Assembly (NCBI GenBank): GCA_025774865.1
Contig: JALGZO010000616.1
Coordinates: 1-5,243, forward strand
Direction of reading: 5' to 3'
DNA length: 5,243 nucleotides
DNA from: a bacterium
GTDB taxonomy: Bacteria; ARS69
How positions within the stretch are numbered: the stretch's first letter is position 1; each line of letters opens with the position of its first letter. Below, piece by piece: positions 1 to 5,243 of this stretch. The notes beneath the pieces were generated by a model that was not told the DNA's origin, did not search any database, and saw only the letters and a program-made list of their open reading frames with translations. The translations under genes were made by a program, and so were the position numbers.

Positions 1-2613
1 GCGAAACAGGTCGCCGCCCGGATCCGGCAAGAGAACGGCTCGCACATCGGGGTGCTCGGCGTGCGGACCCTGAGGCCGTTCCCCGCGGAGGCCGTCGGAG
101 AGGTCCTGAAGGGGAAGCGACGAATTCTGGTCCTCGAACGGGCGGACGCGCCGCTCGCCGGGGAACCGCCGCTCACCCGCGAGATCCGGGCGGCGCTGAC
201 GAGAGCCCCGGCCGGTCGGCCAGCCCGTCCCTCGCGCATCGTGACCGTGATCGCGGGGGCCGGCGGCCTCCCCGTGATCGAAGACGACCTTCGATCGCTG
301 TGCCTCGATCCTCTCGAAGAAGCGGATCGCCTCCTGTACCTGGGGCTCGAGTTCCTTCCCGACGATCCGGACCACCCGAAGCGGCAGGCATTTCACGACC
401 AGCTCGGTCGCCAGTACCCCGAGATCCGGTCGCTCGGCCGCCGCGGCGAGAGGACGAAGGGAGACGCCTCGACGGAAGACCCGTCGATCCCGCCGGCGGT
501 GCGGAACCTCGGCCGGGGTGGCCCCGACTGGTGCAGCCTGCCCCGATTCTGGGATCAGGTGGGTATCCTCTACCACGAGGACCGGGCCACGGAGCTCTCG
601 CCCGACCCTCACCTCGCTCTCGGAGCAATCCCTCCCCTCTCGTCGAGTCTTCGCGATCGATCGAAGCTGGACGCCGGCTGGCCGTCGCTCGACCCGACAC
701 TCTGCACGGGGTGCGGACTCTGTTGGACGCTCTGTCCCGACGGCGCGATCGCGGCCGCGGCGCTCGGAGTCCGCGAGCTCCTCGACGCGGGACTCGAGAC
801 GGCGCGGGCACGGGGGAAGGCGCCCGACGTGCTTCGTTCCGTGCTCGCCCCGTTGGCATCGAAAGCGGAGGCTCGCATACGCGCAGCGGCGCCGGCCGTG
901 TTCGCGGACGCCGTGCGACCGGCCCTGGAGGAGGTGCTCGCGAAGTCGAACCCTCCCGCGGATCGCCGCGCGGCGCTGGCCGCCGCGCTCGACGCCGTCT
1001 TGGAGGAGGTCGGTGAGCTGCCGGTGTCTCGCACGGCTTCTCTCTTCGACGAAGCCCCGAAGGGCAAGGGGGCTCTGCTCGCCCTCGGCATCGATCCGAC
1101 GATGTGCCAGACCTGCGGAGTGTGCATCGAGGCCTGCGAGCCGGCCGCCCTCACCGACGGTGAGGCTTCCGCGGACCGCCGGCGGCGCGATCTCGGGATT
1201 CATGGCGGCGTCAGACAACTGCCGGCGCCGTCGGCCGCGACACTCGATCGGATCCGCGAGCCCGCTGGTTTGGCGGCCGCGCTCCTCCTCGGGCCCGAGA
1301 ACCGTTCCGCGATGAGCGGCGGCGATCACGCCGAACCGGCGAGCGGCGCGCGGCTCGCGCTGCGTCTCGTGCTCGCGGCCACGGTGTCGCACCTCGCGCC
1401 CCGACTGGCCGCGTTCATGGGCGAGCTCGACGAGCTCCGGGCCAAGTTCGCCGAGGAGATCCGGAGCGGCATGTTGGACGCGATCCCCACGAACGACCTC
1501 GATGCCATCGCGCAGGGGCTGCGCGTTCTCGGCGGTCCCGACGTGGATGTCGCCGAGCTGATCAAGCGTGTCGAGGACGCGTGCGACTCCGACCGCATCG
1601 ATGCCGAGCGGCTCTCCGCGCTCGTGGACGCAGCGAAGGACGTCGCCAACCTGCGTGACGCGTGCGCGCGCACGGCCTCGCCCCCCGTGCCACCTCCGCT
1701 CGTGCTCGCCGGCGAATCGCTCGAGTGGGCCGCGACGTTCCCGGACAACCCGTTCGCCGGACCCGTCGTGGTCGACGCCGGGCGGTCGGCGGCTCGAGTC
1801 GCCCTCGGCCTGAGCGAGGGAACCATGCGCGACGTGGCTCGCGGCGCCGGCGTCGCGCGCCGGGCCCGCGCCGCGCTCGCCCAGCCACTGGCGCTCGCGG
1901 CGACGGAACCGCCGTCGTGGTCGGAGCTCGAAGACGCGGAGCGCGCGTGGGCGCCGCCGGTCACGCTCGTTCTGGATGCGGCCACCTGGGGTCGGCAAGA
2001 GCTTTCCGCGGTGGAGGCGCTGCTGGGATCGTCGCGGCCGGTCGTCGTGGTCGTGCTTTCCGACCGCCCGGTGCGGCCGTCGCCCGCGCTCCACGCGCTG
2101 GCCCGCCGCGACGTCTTCACGCTCCAATCGTCGATCGCGTTTCCGGATCACCTCGTGTCCGGCCTCGCCGATGCGCTCTCGAGAGTGGGCCCCGCGCTCG
2201 TACACGTCCTCGCACCGAGCCCGTCGGCGGCGGGGGTCGGGACGGAGCAGCTCATCGAACGGGCTCGGCAACCGGTCGAGGCACGTGCTTTCCCACTGTT
2301 CCGTTACGAGCCGCGGGAGGGCTCGATCGGCCGACTCTCCCTCGACGACAATCCCGAGATCCTGACGACCGAGGCGCGGTCCGAGGACCTCGCAGCGTGG
2401 GAAACGCTGACCGAGCTCGCAGGTATCGGCGGCCCCGGCGTGGAACATGCGCGGGAGGAGGGACGCACCGCCGAACGCGACGCGGCGCGCCGCGAGTGGG
2501 AGCCACGGATCGACGCCGCGGCGAGGGAAGCGCGCGAAGAGATGGAGCAACGCCTGACGAGTCAGCTGATGACACTGTCCGGGTGGGGCCCTCACGACGA
2601 GTCGACACCATGA
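1..2613 (+). CDS. PFOR/NifJ-like protein with degenerate TPP domain (partial, 5' end outside window)
   Basis: The frame is open from base 1 to the TGA at 2611-2613, giving 870 residues (numbered here from base 1). The GTG at 52 lies inside conserved PFOR domain II, so the true start is upstream. Domain order: residues 1-75 resemble domain II (LRPFPAE at 25-31, then VLERADAPLAGEPPL, like the family's VLDRTKEPG..GEPLY). Residues 107-234 are a short linker in place of domains III/IV. A ferredoxin module has cysteines 235/238/241/245 and 369/372/375/379, enough for two [4Fe-4S] clusters. Residues 439-790 are a remnant of domain VI, recognised by LEWAATFPDN (574-583) and PLFRYEP (765-771, like PLYRYDP). 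Residues 814-870 form a charged helical tail. The CxGCGE cysteines, the GDGWAYDIG and SNTGGQ TPP/Mg motifs and the last cluster cysteine (S740 here) are absent, so oxidation of a 2-oxoacid by this chain alone is unlikely. Family membership is fairly secure; an electron-transfer role beside Rnf is inferred. Confidence 0.8.
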   Translation, partial: AKQVAARIRQENGSHIGVLGVRTLRPFPAEAVGEVLKGKRRILVLERADAPLAGEPPLTREIRAALTRAPAGRPARPSRIVTVIAGAGGLPVIEDDLRSLCLDPLEEADRLLYLGLEFLPDDPDHPKRQAFHDQLGRQYPEIRSLGRRGERTKGDASTEDPSIPPAVRNLGRGGPDWCSLPRFWDQVGILYHEDRATELSPDPHLALGAIPPLSSSLRDRSKLDAGWPSLDPTLCTGCGLCWTLCPDGAIAAAALGVRELLDAGLETARARGKAPDVLRSVLAPLASKAEARIRAAAPAVFADAVRPALEEVLAKSNPPADRRAALAAALDAVLEEVGELPVSRTASLFDEAPKGKGALLALGIDPTMCQTCGVCIEACEPAALTDGEASADRRRRDLGIHGGVRQLPAPSAATLDRIREPAGLAAALLLGPENRSAMSGGDHAEPASGARLALRLVLAATVSHLAPRLAAFMGELDELRAKFAEEIRSGMLDAIPTNDLDAIAQGLRVLGGPDVDVAELIKRVEDACDSDRIDAERLSALVDAAKDVANLRDACARTASPPVPPPLVLAGESLEWAATFPDNPFAGPVVVDAGRSAARVALGLSEGTMRDVARGAGVARRARAALAQPLALAATEPPSWSELEDAERAWAPPVTLVLDAATWGRQELSAVEALLGSSRPVVVVVLSDRPVRPSPALHALARRDVFTLQSSIAFPDHLVSGLADALSRVGPALVHVLAPSPSAAGVGTEQLIERARQPVEARAFPLFRYEPREGSIGRLSLDDNPEILTTEARSEDLAAWETLTELAGIGGPGVEHAREEGRTAERDAARREWEPRIDAAAREAREEMEQRLTSQLMTLSGWGPHDESTP
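703..735 (+). other. First [4Fe-4S] ferredoxin motif of the PFOR-like protein
   Basis: Encodes CTGCGLCWTLC followed by P, the standard CxxCxxCxxxCP pattern (residues 235-245). By analogy with 2x[4Fe-4S] ferredoxin domains, the first three cysteines should bind one cluster and the fourth should pair with the second motif. It corresponds to the first half of PFOR domain V, and the preceding segment aligns with the family's domain IV-to-V junction. Confidence 0.88.
1105..1137 (+). other. Second [4Fe-4S] ferredoxin motif of the PFOR-like protein
   Basis: Encodes CQTCGVCIEAC followed by E (residues 369-379), the second CxxCxxCxxxC set. The usual proline after the last cysteine is glutamate here, but all four ligands are present. 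About 123 residues separate it from the first motif, against roughly 45-50 in canonical PFOR as I recall it. The extra length is an alanine-rich, probably helical insertion. Confidence 0.85.
2610..2613 (+). other. ATGA start/stop overlap between PFOR-like gene and rnfC
   Basis: The rnfC ATG (2610-2612) overlaps the PFOR-like TGA (2611-2613). Only a weak GACGAG (2596-2601) precedes it, so rnfC translation probably depends on ribosomes terminating the PFOR-like gene. This links the stoichiometry of the two products. Confidence 0.85.
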
Positions 2614-3926
2614 GGAGCTTCCGTCACGGCATACACCCGGAGGAGCACAAGGAAGCGACGGCGCACCTACCGATCGAACGGATGCCGTTCGTCGATCGTT
2701 ACGTCCTTCCGCTGAGCCAGCACACCGGGGCTCCGGCTCGCCCGATCGTGCAACGCGGTGACGCCGTGGAGCGCGGACAGCTCGTCGCGGAGCCCGTCGG
2801 ATTCGTCTCCACCGCGCTCGCGAGTCCCGTCACCGGGCGGATCGCCGCCATCGGCGCGCGCCGGCGCCCCGGCGGAGATCTCGGGGAAGCGATCGAGATC
2901 GAGGCCGATCCGTTCGCCACGCAGCGTTTCGAGTCGCAGGACCCCGTCGACGGGTCTGCCCTTTCGCTCGGAGAATTCGTCTCCGAGGTGCAGCGCGCCG
3001 GGCTCGTCGGCATGGGCGGCGCGGCGTTTCCGAGCCACGTGAAGTACGCGGTGCCGGAGGGGCGTCGCGTGCGGCGTCTCGTCATCAACGGCTGCGAGTG
3101 CGAGCCCTACCTCACTTGCGACCATCGCCTGATGGTCGAGCGCTCGGAAGCGGTGATCCGCGGAACCTCGATCCTCGCCGAGAAGCTGGAGGTCGAAGAG
3201 ATCGTGATCGGGGTCGAGGCGAACAAGCCGGACGCGATCGAGGCGCTCCGGGCCGTTTCGGCGAACGGTTACGACGTCCGCGTCGCGCCCCTCGAAGTGA
3301 AGTACCCGCAGGGCGCGGAGAAGATGCTCATCAAGGCGCTCTTTCGCGAGGAAGTCCCCGCGGGGAAGCTTCCACTCGACCTCGATATTCTCGTGAACAA
3401 CGTCGCGACGATGGCGGCGCTGGCCGACTGGTTCGATCGAAGACTGCCCCTGATCGAGAGAGTCGTCACGGTCGCCGGACCCGGCGTTCGTAGTCCATCC
3501 AATCTCCTGGTGCCAATCGGAACTCCTGTCCGCGACGTGCTCGATCACTGTGGCGTCGACGCCGAGACCAAAGAGATCGTCATGGGCGGACCGATGATGG
3601 GACAGCCACTCGCGTCGATCGACGTTCCGGTCCTCAAAGGGACGTCCGGCCTTCTCGTCTTCACGGAAGTGGCAACCGGACGGCCGAACGAATACACCTG
3701 TCTCAAATGCGGCCGCTGCCTGGAAGCGTGCTCCAATTTCCTGAATCCGTCGCGCCTCGCGCGGCTCGCCCGCGCCGAACGCTACGACGAGATGGAGCGT
3801 TCGTTCGCGCTCGATTGCATGGAATGCGGAGCGTGCTCCTACACGTGTCCCTCCAACATCCCGATCGTGCAGCTCATCCGCGCCGCCAAGACGGAAATCC
3901 GCCGACGCAAGGCCCCCCGCCCATGA
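2610..3926 (+). CDS. rnfC: Rnf electron transport complex subunit C (RnfC/RsxC)
   Basis: 438 residues. RnfC is the peripheral cytoplasmic subunit of the ion-translocating ferredoxin:NAD+ oxidoreductase, carrying the NAD(H)/FMN site and two [4Fe-4S] clusters. The N-terminal barrel-sandwich region has GIHPEEHKEAT, VLPLSQHTGAP and ASPVTGRI. The nucleotide/FMN fold follows with GMGGAAFP (134-141) and NGCECEPYLTCDHR (160-173), then YPQGAEKMLI. An SLBB-type domain has VTVAGPGV, VPIGTPV and MGGPMMG, followed by VLKGTSGLLVF. The ferredoxin domain has cysteines 364/367/370/374 and 403/406/409/413, the latter in CMECGACSYTCPSNIP. The length matches compact clostridial-type RnfC and lacks the long repeat-rich C-terminal extension of enterobacterial RsxC. 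The ATG at 2610 overlaps the upstream stop (ATGA) and places the family N terminus exactly. The ribosome-binding site is weak, so translational coupling is likely. Identity is nearly certain. Confidence 0.97.
   Translation: MRSFRHGIHPEEHKEATAHLPIERMPFVDRYVLPLSQHTGAPARPIVQRGDAVERGQLVAEPVGFVSTALASPVTGRIAAIGARRRPGGDLGEAIEIEADPFATQRFESQDPVDGSALSLGEFVSEVQRAGLVGMGGAAFPSHVKYAVPEGRRVRRLVINGCECEPYLTCDHRLMVERSEAVIRGTSILAEKLEVEEIVIGVEANKPDAIEALRAVSANGYDVRVAPLEVKYPQGAEKMLIKALFREEVPAGKLPLDLDILVNNVATMAALADWFDRRLPLIERVVTVAGPGVRSPSNLLVPIGTPVRDVLDHCGVDAETKEIVMGGPMMGQPLASIDVPVLKGTSGLLVFTEVATGRPNEYTCLKCGRCLEACSNFLNPSRLARLARAERYDEMERSFALDCMECGACSYTCPSNIPIVQLIRAAKTEIRRRKAPRP
3923..3926 (+). other. ATGA start/stop overlap between rnfC and rnfD
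   Basis: The rnfD ATG (3923-3925) overlaps the rnfC TGA (3924-3926), a typical translational-coupling junction for subunits of one complex. A CAAGG at 3908-3912 is a possible weak ribosome-binding site. Confidence 0.85.
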
Positions 3927-4927
3927 GCTCGAGACCGTTGCTCGTCCAGCCGGCCCCGTTCCTCCGGCGGCCGCTGACCACGCCGGTCCTGATGCGCGAC
4001 GTGCTGCTCGCTCTCGTGCCCGTGCTCGGCGCCGCCGTTTGGTATTTCGGCGCGAGCGCACTGCTCGTCGTGGGGGCGGCGGTTGCGGGAGCCTGTGGCA
4101 CGGAGTGGGCACTCGGGCCGGGCGGCCGACGCGGAACGTCGCTCGCGGACGGCAGCGCGATCCTCACCGGCGTTCTGCTCGGACTCACGCTGCCACCGGG
4201 GCTTCCCCTCTGGATGGCGTTCGTGGGAGGAGTCGTCGCGATCGGTCTCGGAAAGGCAGTGTGGGGAGGTCTCGGCCACAATCTCTTCAATCCCGCCCTC
4301 GTGGGGCGCGCGTTTCTTCAGGCGGCATTCCCCACGGCCCTGACGACCTGGACCACTCCCGGTGGCGCTTCTCTGTGGCTGAGGGGCTCGAATCTCGCGC
4401 TTCCGTTTCTGCGCTCGGACGTAGACGCCGTCTCGGTCGCCACGCCGCTCGCGCTGGCCAAGTTCCAGGGCGAGTCGACACCGTTCGCTTCGCTCCTCGC
4501 GGGGAGCACGTCCGGGTCACTGGGGGAGACGAGCGCGGCACTCCTGATTCTCTGCGGTCTCGTGCTCGGCCTGAGACGTTCGTTCGACTGGCGCATTCCC
4601 GTTGCGTTGCTCGCCGCGGTCGCCGTGTTCGCGGGGGTGTTGCACTGGGTCGATCCGGGCCGTTATCCGGCCCCCGTCTTCCACCTCCTGTCCGGTGGTC
4701 TTCTCTTCGGGACCGTCTTCATGGCGACCGACCCGGTCACCTCGCCGGTCGCACCGAAAGCAGCCTGGGTGTTCGGGGCCGGCGTCGGGCTTCTCGTGGT
4801 GTTGATCCGCACCTTCGGAGGGCTGCCGGAGGGTGTGATGTACTCGATCCTCCTCATGAACGCCGCGTCCCCGTTGATCGAGAAGCAGATGCAGCCGCGC
4901 GTGTTCGGTCGGAAGGCCGTTTCGTGA
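3923..4927 (+). CDS. rnfD: Rnf electron transport complex subunit D (RnfD/RsxD)
   Basis: 334 residues, strongly hydrophobic with multiple membrane segments (for example about 28-58, 77-112, 204-216, 226-242, 254-268 and 281-298). RnfD is the NqrB-like integral membrane subunit of Rnf that carries covalent FMN and takes part in ion-coupled electron transfer. Family signatures are DGSAILTGVLLGLTLPP (76-92), GGLGHNLFNPALVGRAFLQ (115-133), SVATPLA (171-177), GETSA (201-205), TDPVTSPVAPK (269-279) and IRTFGGLPEGVMYSILLMNA (295-314). T174 in SVATPLA sits where the FMN-accepting threonine of RnfD/NqrB is found. The ATG at 3923 overlaps the rnfC stop (ATGA). An AAGG-type site about 10 bases upstream and the match to the short cytoplasmic N terminus of RnfD support it. 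NqrB is the alternative, but the length and the rnfC neighbour favour RnfD. Confidence 0.96.
   Translation: MSSRPLLVQPAPFLRRPLTTPVLMRDVLLALVPVLGAAVWYFGASALLVVGAAVAGACGTEWALGPGGRRGTSLADGSAILTGVLLGLTLPPGLPLWMAFVGGVVAIGLGKAVWGGLGHNLFNPALVGRAFLQAAFPTALTTWTTPGGASLWLRGSNLALPFLRSDVDAVSVATPLALAKFQGESTPFASLLAGSTSGSLGETSAALLILCGLVLGLRRSFDWRIPVALLAAVAVFAGVLHWVDPGRYPAPVFHLLSGGLLFGTVFMATDPVTSPVAPKAAWVFGAGVGLLVVLIRTFGGLPEGVMYSILLMNAASPLIEKQMQPRVFGRKAVS
4911..4916 (+). promoter_or_regulatory. Ribosome-binding site for rnfG
   Basis: GGAAGG lies inside the 3' end of rnfD, 7 bases before the GTG at 4924. It supports that non-ATG start over the in-frame GTG at 4954. It is the clearest Shine-Dalgarno-like sequence at the three gene junctions. 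Confidence 0.6.
4924..4927 (+). other. GTGA start/stop overlap between rnfD and rnfG
   Basis: The rnfG GTG (4924-4926) overlaps the rnfD TGA (4925-4927). It repeats the 4-bp overlap seen at the two upstream junctions and keeps the operon without intergenic space. Confidence 0.8.
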
Positions 4928-5243
4928 ACGGTTCACCGGGATCGGTTCGCCTCGTGACGACGCTCGCGCTCGCGGGATTGCTGTCGGGGCTCACCATCGT
5001 GGGTACGTACGAGGCCACGCTGCCCCGGATCACCGAGAACCAGGCTCGGGCGTTGCGCCGCGCGATCTTCGAAGTCGTTCCCGGTGCCAATGTGTTCCAG
5101 CCCCTGGAGCTGGTCGAAGGAGAGCTGGGCGTCGCGGGGGATGCCACCGACCTGTTCGCCGTCTACGACGGTTCGGGCTCCTTCGTCGGTTACGCGATCA
5201 CCGGAGAGGGACCGGGCTTCCAGGACACCATCGGGCTCATCTT
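4924..5243 (+). CDS. rnfG: Rnf electron transport complex subunit G (RnfG/RsxG), partial, 3' end outside window
   Basis: The first 106 residues are visible and the frame runs off the window. RnfG is anchored by one N-terminal helix and exposes an FMN-carrying domain outside the cytoplasm, relaying electrons within Rnf. Residues about 9-27 (RLVTTLALAGLLSGLTIVG) form the expected membrane anchor. They are followed by the family's helix of the NQARALRRAIFEVVPGA type (39-55). GYAITGEGPGFQDTIGLI at 89-106 is the conserved FMN-binding-domain entry. The covalent FMN threonine motif lies further downstream and cannot be checked. The GTG start at 4924 overlaps the rnfD stop (GTGA) and has a GGAAGG site 7 bases upstream. 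An in-frame GTG at 4954 would cut into the anchor and is less likely. The gene order C-D-G agrees with known rnf operons. Confidence 0.94.
   Translation, partial: MNGSPGSVRLVTTLALAGLLSGLTIVGTYEATLPRITENQARALRRAIFEVVPGANVFQPLELVEGELGVAGDATDLFAVYDGSGSFVGYAITGEGPGFQDTIGLI

Follow-up and report, generated by a model that had tools for sequence, protein, structure and literature searches.

The window analysed here, a stretch of 5,243 nucleotides, corresponds to contig C620 of a MAG consisting of 785 contigs. It carries the 3' portion of a PFOR-like gene followed by rnf genes, and the following features can be delineated:

1..2613, forward strand: PFOR-like gene of the kind called type B below, almost certainly a pseudoenzyme; C-terminal 870 amino acids, 5'-truncated at the contig end
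4..267, forward strand: PFOR core domain II (residues 2-89; Pfam PF17147, E 4.8e-12)
703..738, forward strand: domain V [4Fe-4S] motif 1, CTGCGLCWTLCP (residues 235-246; Pfam Fer4; cysteines invariant in alignment A3)
1105..1137, forward strand: domain V [4Fe-4S] motif 2, CQTCGVCIEAC (residues 369-379; Pfam match, alignment A3 and predicted structure)
1315..1347, forward strand: former proximal-cluster CxxC site, SGGDHAEPASG (residues 439-449), aligned with SGxGACxGCxEK of type A and nifJ
1711..1755, forward strand: former third-cysteine segment, NATGCSSVWxSTYPFNPY in type A and here ...GESLEWAATFPDNPF (alignment)
1969..2028, forward strand: former GGDG..DIG Mg/TPP motif, here VLDAATWGRQELSAVEALLG (residues 657-676; alignment)
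2212..2235, forward strand: site of the former fourth proximal-cluster cysteine, here APSPSAAG with S740 (alignment)
2434..2580, forward strand: long C-terminal helix (residues 812-860; predicted structure)
2610..3926, forward strand: rnfC (TIGR01945, E 4.6e-152), its start overlapping the stop of the PFOR-like gene (ATGA)
3923..4927, forward strand: rnfD (TIGR01946, E 6.5e-91)
4924..5243, forward strand: 5' part of rnfG (NF041840, E 1.6e-7); the rest of rnfG, then rnfE and rnfA, lie on contig C448 (L004)

The contig joins were checked by a search of the MAG contigs. The N-terminal piece of the type-B gene (170 codons; L048:3-512, reverse strand) lies at the end of contig C540, which terminates within the gene and has the order korA-korB-p741-rnfB-start of the window gene. 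Approximately 130 amino acids are absent between this piece and the window ORF, and no overlap with the window start was found on any of the MAG contigs. At the other end, C448 overlaps the window by 147 bases at 97%. Across the three contigs (C540, C620, C448) the order in the source genome is thus korA-korB-p741-rnfB-[window gene]-rnfC-D-G-E-A. Two further stretches of the same genome, L049 (C765) and L050 (C744), hold more split 2-oxoacid oxidoreductase genes, and pyruvate oxidation therefore need not rely on the window protein.

By its domain architecture and predicted fold, the window protein is a homologue of the PFOR superfamily. A POR_N domain was matched by Pfam in the N-terminal piece, and the two domain V motifs of the window are separated by a helical insert of approximately 110 amino acids. 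The eight domain V cysteines, corresponding to two predicted [4Fe-4S] clusters, are all kept in the window and are invariant across the 20 sequences of alignment A3. At the sequence level, phmmer matched residues 687-785 to the POR beta chain 9bt4_C (E 4.5e-5) and residues 706-775 to the oxalate oxidoreductase beta chain 5c4i_C (E 7e-4). The predicted structure (mean pLDDT 76) superposes on solved PFORs with Z 36-37 and rmsd 6.3-6.8 over 540-556 residues, and its domain VI (422-805, 242 residues aligned) superposes on oxalate oxidoreductase beta with Z 21.9 and rmsd 2.5; the input alignment of the model included two intact type-A relatives, which may bias these comparisons toward the PFOR fold. 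The phmmer match to domain VI is independent of that alignment. The plasmid-derived rows L040 and L041 were left out of the folding input alignments. A reading of the sequence only had recognised PFOR domain VI by eye in nucleotides 1315-2380, and both the phmmer matches and the superposition on whole PFORs bear this homology out; the region does belong to domain VI, but the fold continues beyond nucleotide 2380 and ends near residue 805, after which comes the C-terminal helix.

In the MAFFT alignment with nifJ and intact relatives, SGGDHAEPASGAR of the window protein falls onto SGxGACxGCxEK, GESLEWA stands where the others have TGCSSVW, and TLVLDAATWG is aligned onto VAVGGDGAMY with an alanine at the position of the GDG aspartate, while SNTGGQ falls on a gap near nucleotide 2064. 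None of the four proximal-cluster cysteines is left, and past residue 379 there are only two cysteines (C528 and C555), neither within a CxxC. This agrees with the sequence-only reading, which had placed SGGDHAEPASG (439-449) at the CxxC site, an alanine at the Mg-binding aspartate within VLDAATWGRQELSAVEALLG (657-676), a deletion at SNTGGQ and S740 at the last cluster cysteine, had counted the same two cysteines, and had quoted RRDVFTLQSSI and PLFRYEP, which are indeed found at 702-712 and 765-771. Its pairing of LEWAATFPDN with GPAWANSLFEDN was rejected as mistaken: LEWAATFPDNPF aligns after the third proximal cysteine (CSSIYGGNLPTTPY in nifJ, SSVWASTYPFNPY in relatives), and the window equivalent of GPAWANSLFEDN is GPVVVDAGRSA.

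The losses reach domain I as well, since both the YPITPS motif and the conserved glutamate segment are absent from the 170-codon N-terminal piece (L048). In the structural superposition proposed by that reading the PFOR fold is kept, and neither the remainder of the chain nor the paralogue described below was found to supply ligands for TPP or the proximal cluster. Taken together, the motif losses, the predicted fold and the tree make it nearly certain that the window protein is a pseudoenzyme, a catalytically dead descendant of PFOR.

Relatives were gathered from genome contigs, the source organism's own family, a sample of 386 genomes from the bacterial domain, and plasmids. Matches at E <= 1e-30 occurred in 34 of the 386 genomes, a count that includes ordinary PFORs. 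The relatives are of two kinds: type A keeps the catalytic motifs, and most of its members also have a C-terminal ferredoxin domain, whereas type B is devoid of the motifs, the losses of the window recurring in its homologues in the alignment. Two intermediates, L097 (568-5754) and L104 (7026-11972), have kept the cluster cysteines and lost the GDG and NTGGQ motifs. L095 and L100 have kept GGDG and lost SNTGGQ and the cluster cysteines. In L100 (G244:C54, 7586-12244, reverse strand), a type-B gene, the domain V cluster motifs are gone too (YKDNPLSLAHCL, GKESDLCQKVFG), and p836 (see below) and rnf genes remain. In L094 (G240:C80, 6701-11158, reverse strand) a single in-frame TAA interrupts the type-B gene after the Fe-S domain and before domain VI, due to either gene fission or a sequencing error. 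Another set of intact PFORs, L106-L112, measures approximately 1520-1630 amino acids and is of the GGDGAFGDIG type; no rnf genes were found in these stretches or in that of L099, also an intact PFOR. Both kinds occur in genome G002: one rnf cluster contains an intact type A (L043), and a separate contig (L061) carries korAB-p836-rnfB and the N-terminal part of a type-B-like protein.

Genes of both types are mostly located between rnfB and rnfC, with the exception of Persicobacter (L041), where rnfB is downstream, and in some gammaproteobacteria sucCD lies between type B and rnfC. Since intact type-A PFORs occupy the same slot, the linkage to Rnf is independent of the losses. The order korA-korB-p836-rnfB-typeB-(sucCD)-rnfC-D-G-E-A was found in gammaproteobacteria, a MAG labelled deltaproteobacterium, the source organism's own family and several other lineages. 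The protein p836 (p741 in the source genome) is a second PFOR-derived protein accompanying type B. Pfam detects only its C-terminal ferredoxin domain, which has a single cluster with four cysteines invariant in alignment A4; its model nevertheless matches the domain VI end of PFOR with Z 18, and the alignment shows its domain VI without the motifs, so that this domain is dead too. This pair of dead proteins within a korAB-Rnf operon could not be revealed by the sequence-only reading.

For each of the 25 type-B loci (the window, G001, G057, G108, G077, G218, G244, G240, G184, the second cluster of G002 and L005-L019) a p836 gene was found, either in the locus or elsewhere in the genome; several loci are close relatives and not independent, and the G002 cluster was classed by its N-terminal piece alone. 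In L012 (Thiomargarita) p836 is detached, on another contig of the same genome. The intermediate L104 also has p836, adjoining korAB. By contrast, a separate p836 was found in none of the six intact type-A rnf loci with enough flanking sequence (of seven; L044 begins inside rnfB). The korAB genes adjoin p836 in 19 of the 25 type-B loci and are approximately 4 kb off in G057; in L006, L007, L009 and L105 the contig ends before korAB would be reached, and in L012 p836 is elsewhere. Some type-A loci are without korAB. The KorB of the cluster is intact, keeping the CPGCG, GIGCSSR and GDGD motifs, and the closest solved structure is that of the Magnetococcus marinus enzyme (OGOR, 6n2n; E 2.6e-50 for KorB and 1.2e-83 for KorA). 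No ferredoxin or delta subunit belonging to KorAB was found in the cluster.

In the domain VI tree (436 columns, IQ-TREE, rooted on nifJ), type B and p836 each form a clade (support 99.4/100 and 100/100, respectively), and together with L104 they form a joint clade (97.1/97) apart from type A, a union that the long branches of the dead copies may exaggerate. Each clade has a deep split, and the two resulting groups are the same in both. Most simply, these sequences would go back to one duplication of a type-A-like gene, after which both copies decayed and were inherited or transferred as a unit. Mirror-tree tests gave Mantel r of 0.95-0.97 for all operon genes, about equally, and the mirrored trees are therefore not specific to the pair. 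The dead domain VI has dN/dS of 0.025-0.125 among the gammaproteobacterial pairs compared, several of which have high dS; as judged from these ratios, it is under strong purifying selection in the gammaproteobacterial members. The earlier suggestion of a pseudoenzyme kept for another role is thus strengthened by the same losses in type-B homologues, the missing domain I motifs, the lack of substitute ligands and this selection.

With every tested catalytic motif lost and the gene kept, the protein is probably an electron wire or a scaffold and not an enzyme. PFOR in its native state is a homodimer. Dimeric KorAB-type enzymes reduce ferredoxin, and electron exchange between ferredoxin and NAD+ is carried out by Rnf. 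We infer the association of type B with Rnf and KorAB from gene order and co-localisation, and on this basis we lean toward the view that the pseudo-PFOR pair wires 2-oxoacid oxidoreduction, probably of 2-oxoglutarate, to Rnf; the presence of sucCD within the cluster of gammaproteobacteria suggests that succinyl-CoA/2-oxoglutarate is involved. Type B would pair with the second dead paralogue (p741 here, p836 in relatives), the homodimer having become a heterodimer of paralogues with the TPP sites decayed in both and three predicted [4Fe-4S] clusters retained, two in type B and one in p836/p741. The pair may then dock the intact KorAB to the Rnf complex, and electrons could pass among KorAB, the clusters of the pair and RnfB/RnfC, presumably in either direction. 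Running oxidatively, the assembly would act as a membrane-bound 2-oxoacid:NAD+ oxidoreductase pumping ions; running in reverse, it would spend ion-motive force to drive low-potential electrons into reductive carboxylation.

Alternatively, the dead fold could be purely a scaffold or assembly factor which holds KorAB beside Rnf or stabilises Rnf, its clusters being structural leftovers. The fold is retained despite the decay of the active site, and L100 keeps the gene and its partner after losing the domain V cluster motifs, so scaffolding could be the primary role; however, working clusters would be expected to show just what is observed, the invariance of all eight cysteines of domain V in A3 and of the four in the ferredoxin domain of the partner in A4, and we find a pure scaffold rather unlikely. 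Quite unlikely, too, is an additional ferredoxin-docking module of Rnf serving any soluble ferredoxin and not specifically KorAB: korAB adjoins p836 in nearly all type-B loci with sufficient upstream sequence, although intact type-A PFORs share the slot, some at loci without korAB, and korB of G057 is about 4 kb from p836. Preservation of the overall PFOR fold might suggest that the protein is still an enzyme, with TPP bound where it meets KorAB or p741, or with other chemistry in a remodelled pocket, but the loss of the Mg/TPP motif, NTGGQ, the proximal cluster and the domain I glutamate, together with the domain VI motifs of p836, and the intact korAB of the operon make this very improbable. 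A decaying pseudogene or an assembly artefact is hardly credible even for a fragmented MAG (785 contigs, 8.3% contamination), given the 870-codon open frame, the ATGA overlap with rnfC and the intact frames of relatives under purifying selection.

The wire reading, in its full extent, leads to a tentative proposal: an undescribed membrane-bound machine made up of KorAB, the pseudo-PFOR heterodimer and Rnf, possibly present in several lineages, in which an ancestral Rnf-linked PFOR was duplicated, lost both active sites and wires the interconversion of 2-oxoglutarate and succinyl-CoA to ion pumping. If the wire reading is true, a TPP enzyme has been converted to an electron conduit, the same conserved slot accommodates forms that are intact (type A), half-lost (L097 and L104) or dead (type B), and a route links the Rnf ion pump directly to the TCA cycle, whether forward or reverse. 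Annotation is likely to label type-B genes PFOR and the partner hypothetical, which would ascribe to sulfur oxidisers and candidate phyla a pyruvate chemistry that is impossible for these proteins.

Dimeric korAB and Rnf have been reported in tubeworm symbionts (Rubin-Blum, 2019; PMC6315080), and a later study adds a 'PFOR-like' gene to the two (Mitchell, 2024; PMC11636981). Expression of this Endoriftia gene, a possible member of the type-B family, falls together with that of a dimeric korAB under H2S limitation; the passages on it do not mention lost catalytic residues (PMC11636981). Beyond that label, no description of a dead PFOR, a PFOR-derived Rnf module or the second paralogue was found in open-access PMC text.

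Compared with the PFORs of Desulfovibrio africanus (1b0p/7plm) and Moorella thermoacetica (6cin), the window protein shares domains II, V and VI in order, the two domain V [4Fe-4S] motifs and the domain VI fold. It differs in having no proximal cluster, Mg/TPP motif, SNTGGQ or domain I motifs, and it has the inter-cluster insert of approximately 110 amino acids; its lineage is without domain III. Of the dimeric KorAB 2-oxoglutarate:ferredoxin oxidoreductase (M. marinus, 6n2n) an intact homologue is encoded in the same gene cluster as the window protein, which is itself neither KorA nor KorB but a distinct protein descended from PFOR. The Rnf complex (RnfABCDGE) is related to the locus through the position of the window gene, between rnfB and rnfC and overlapping the latter; the six-subunit complex itself is not known to include a module derived from PFOR. 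Complex I offers a parallel in NuoG and NuoD, once redox enzymes, which no longer have an active site but still serve electron transfer or coupling. The window protein may be their analogue in role, as a dead redox enzyme in electron transfer or coupling; those subunits, however, derive from molybdopterin and NiFe enzymes, and the window protein from a TPP enzyme.
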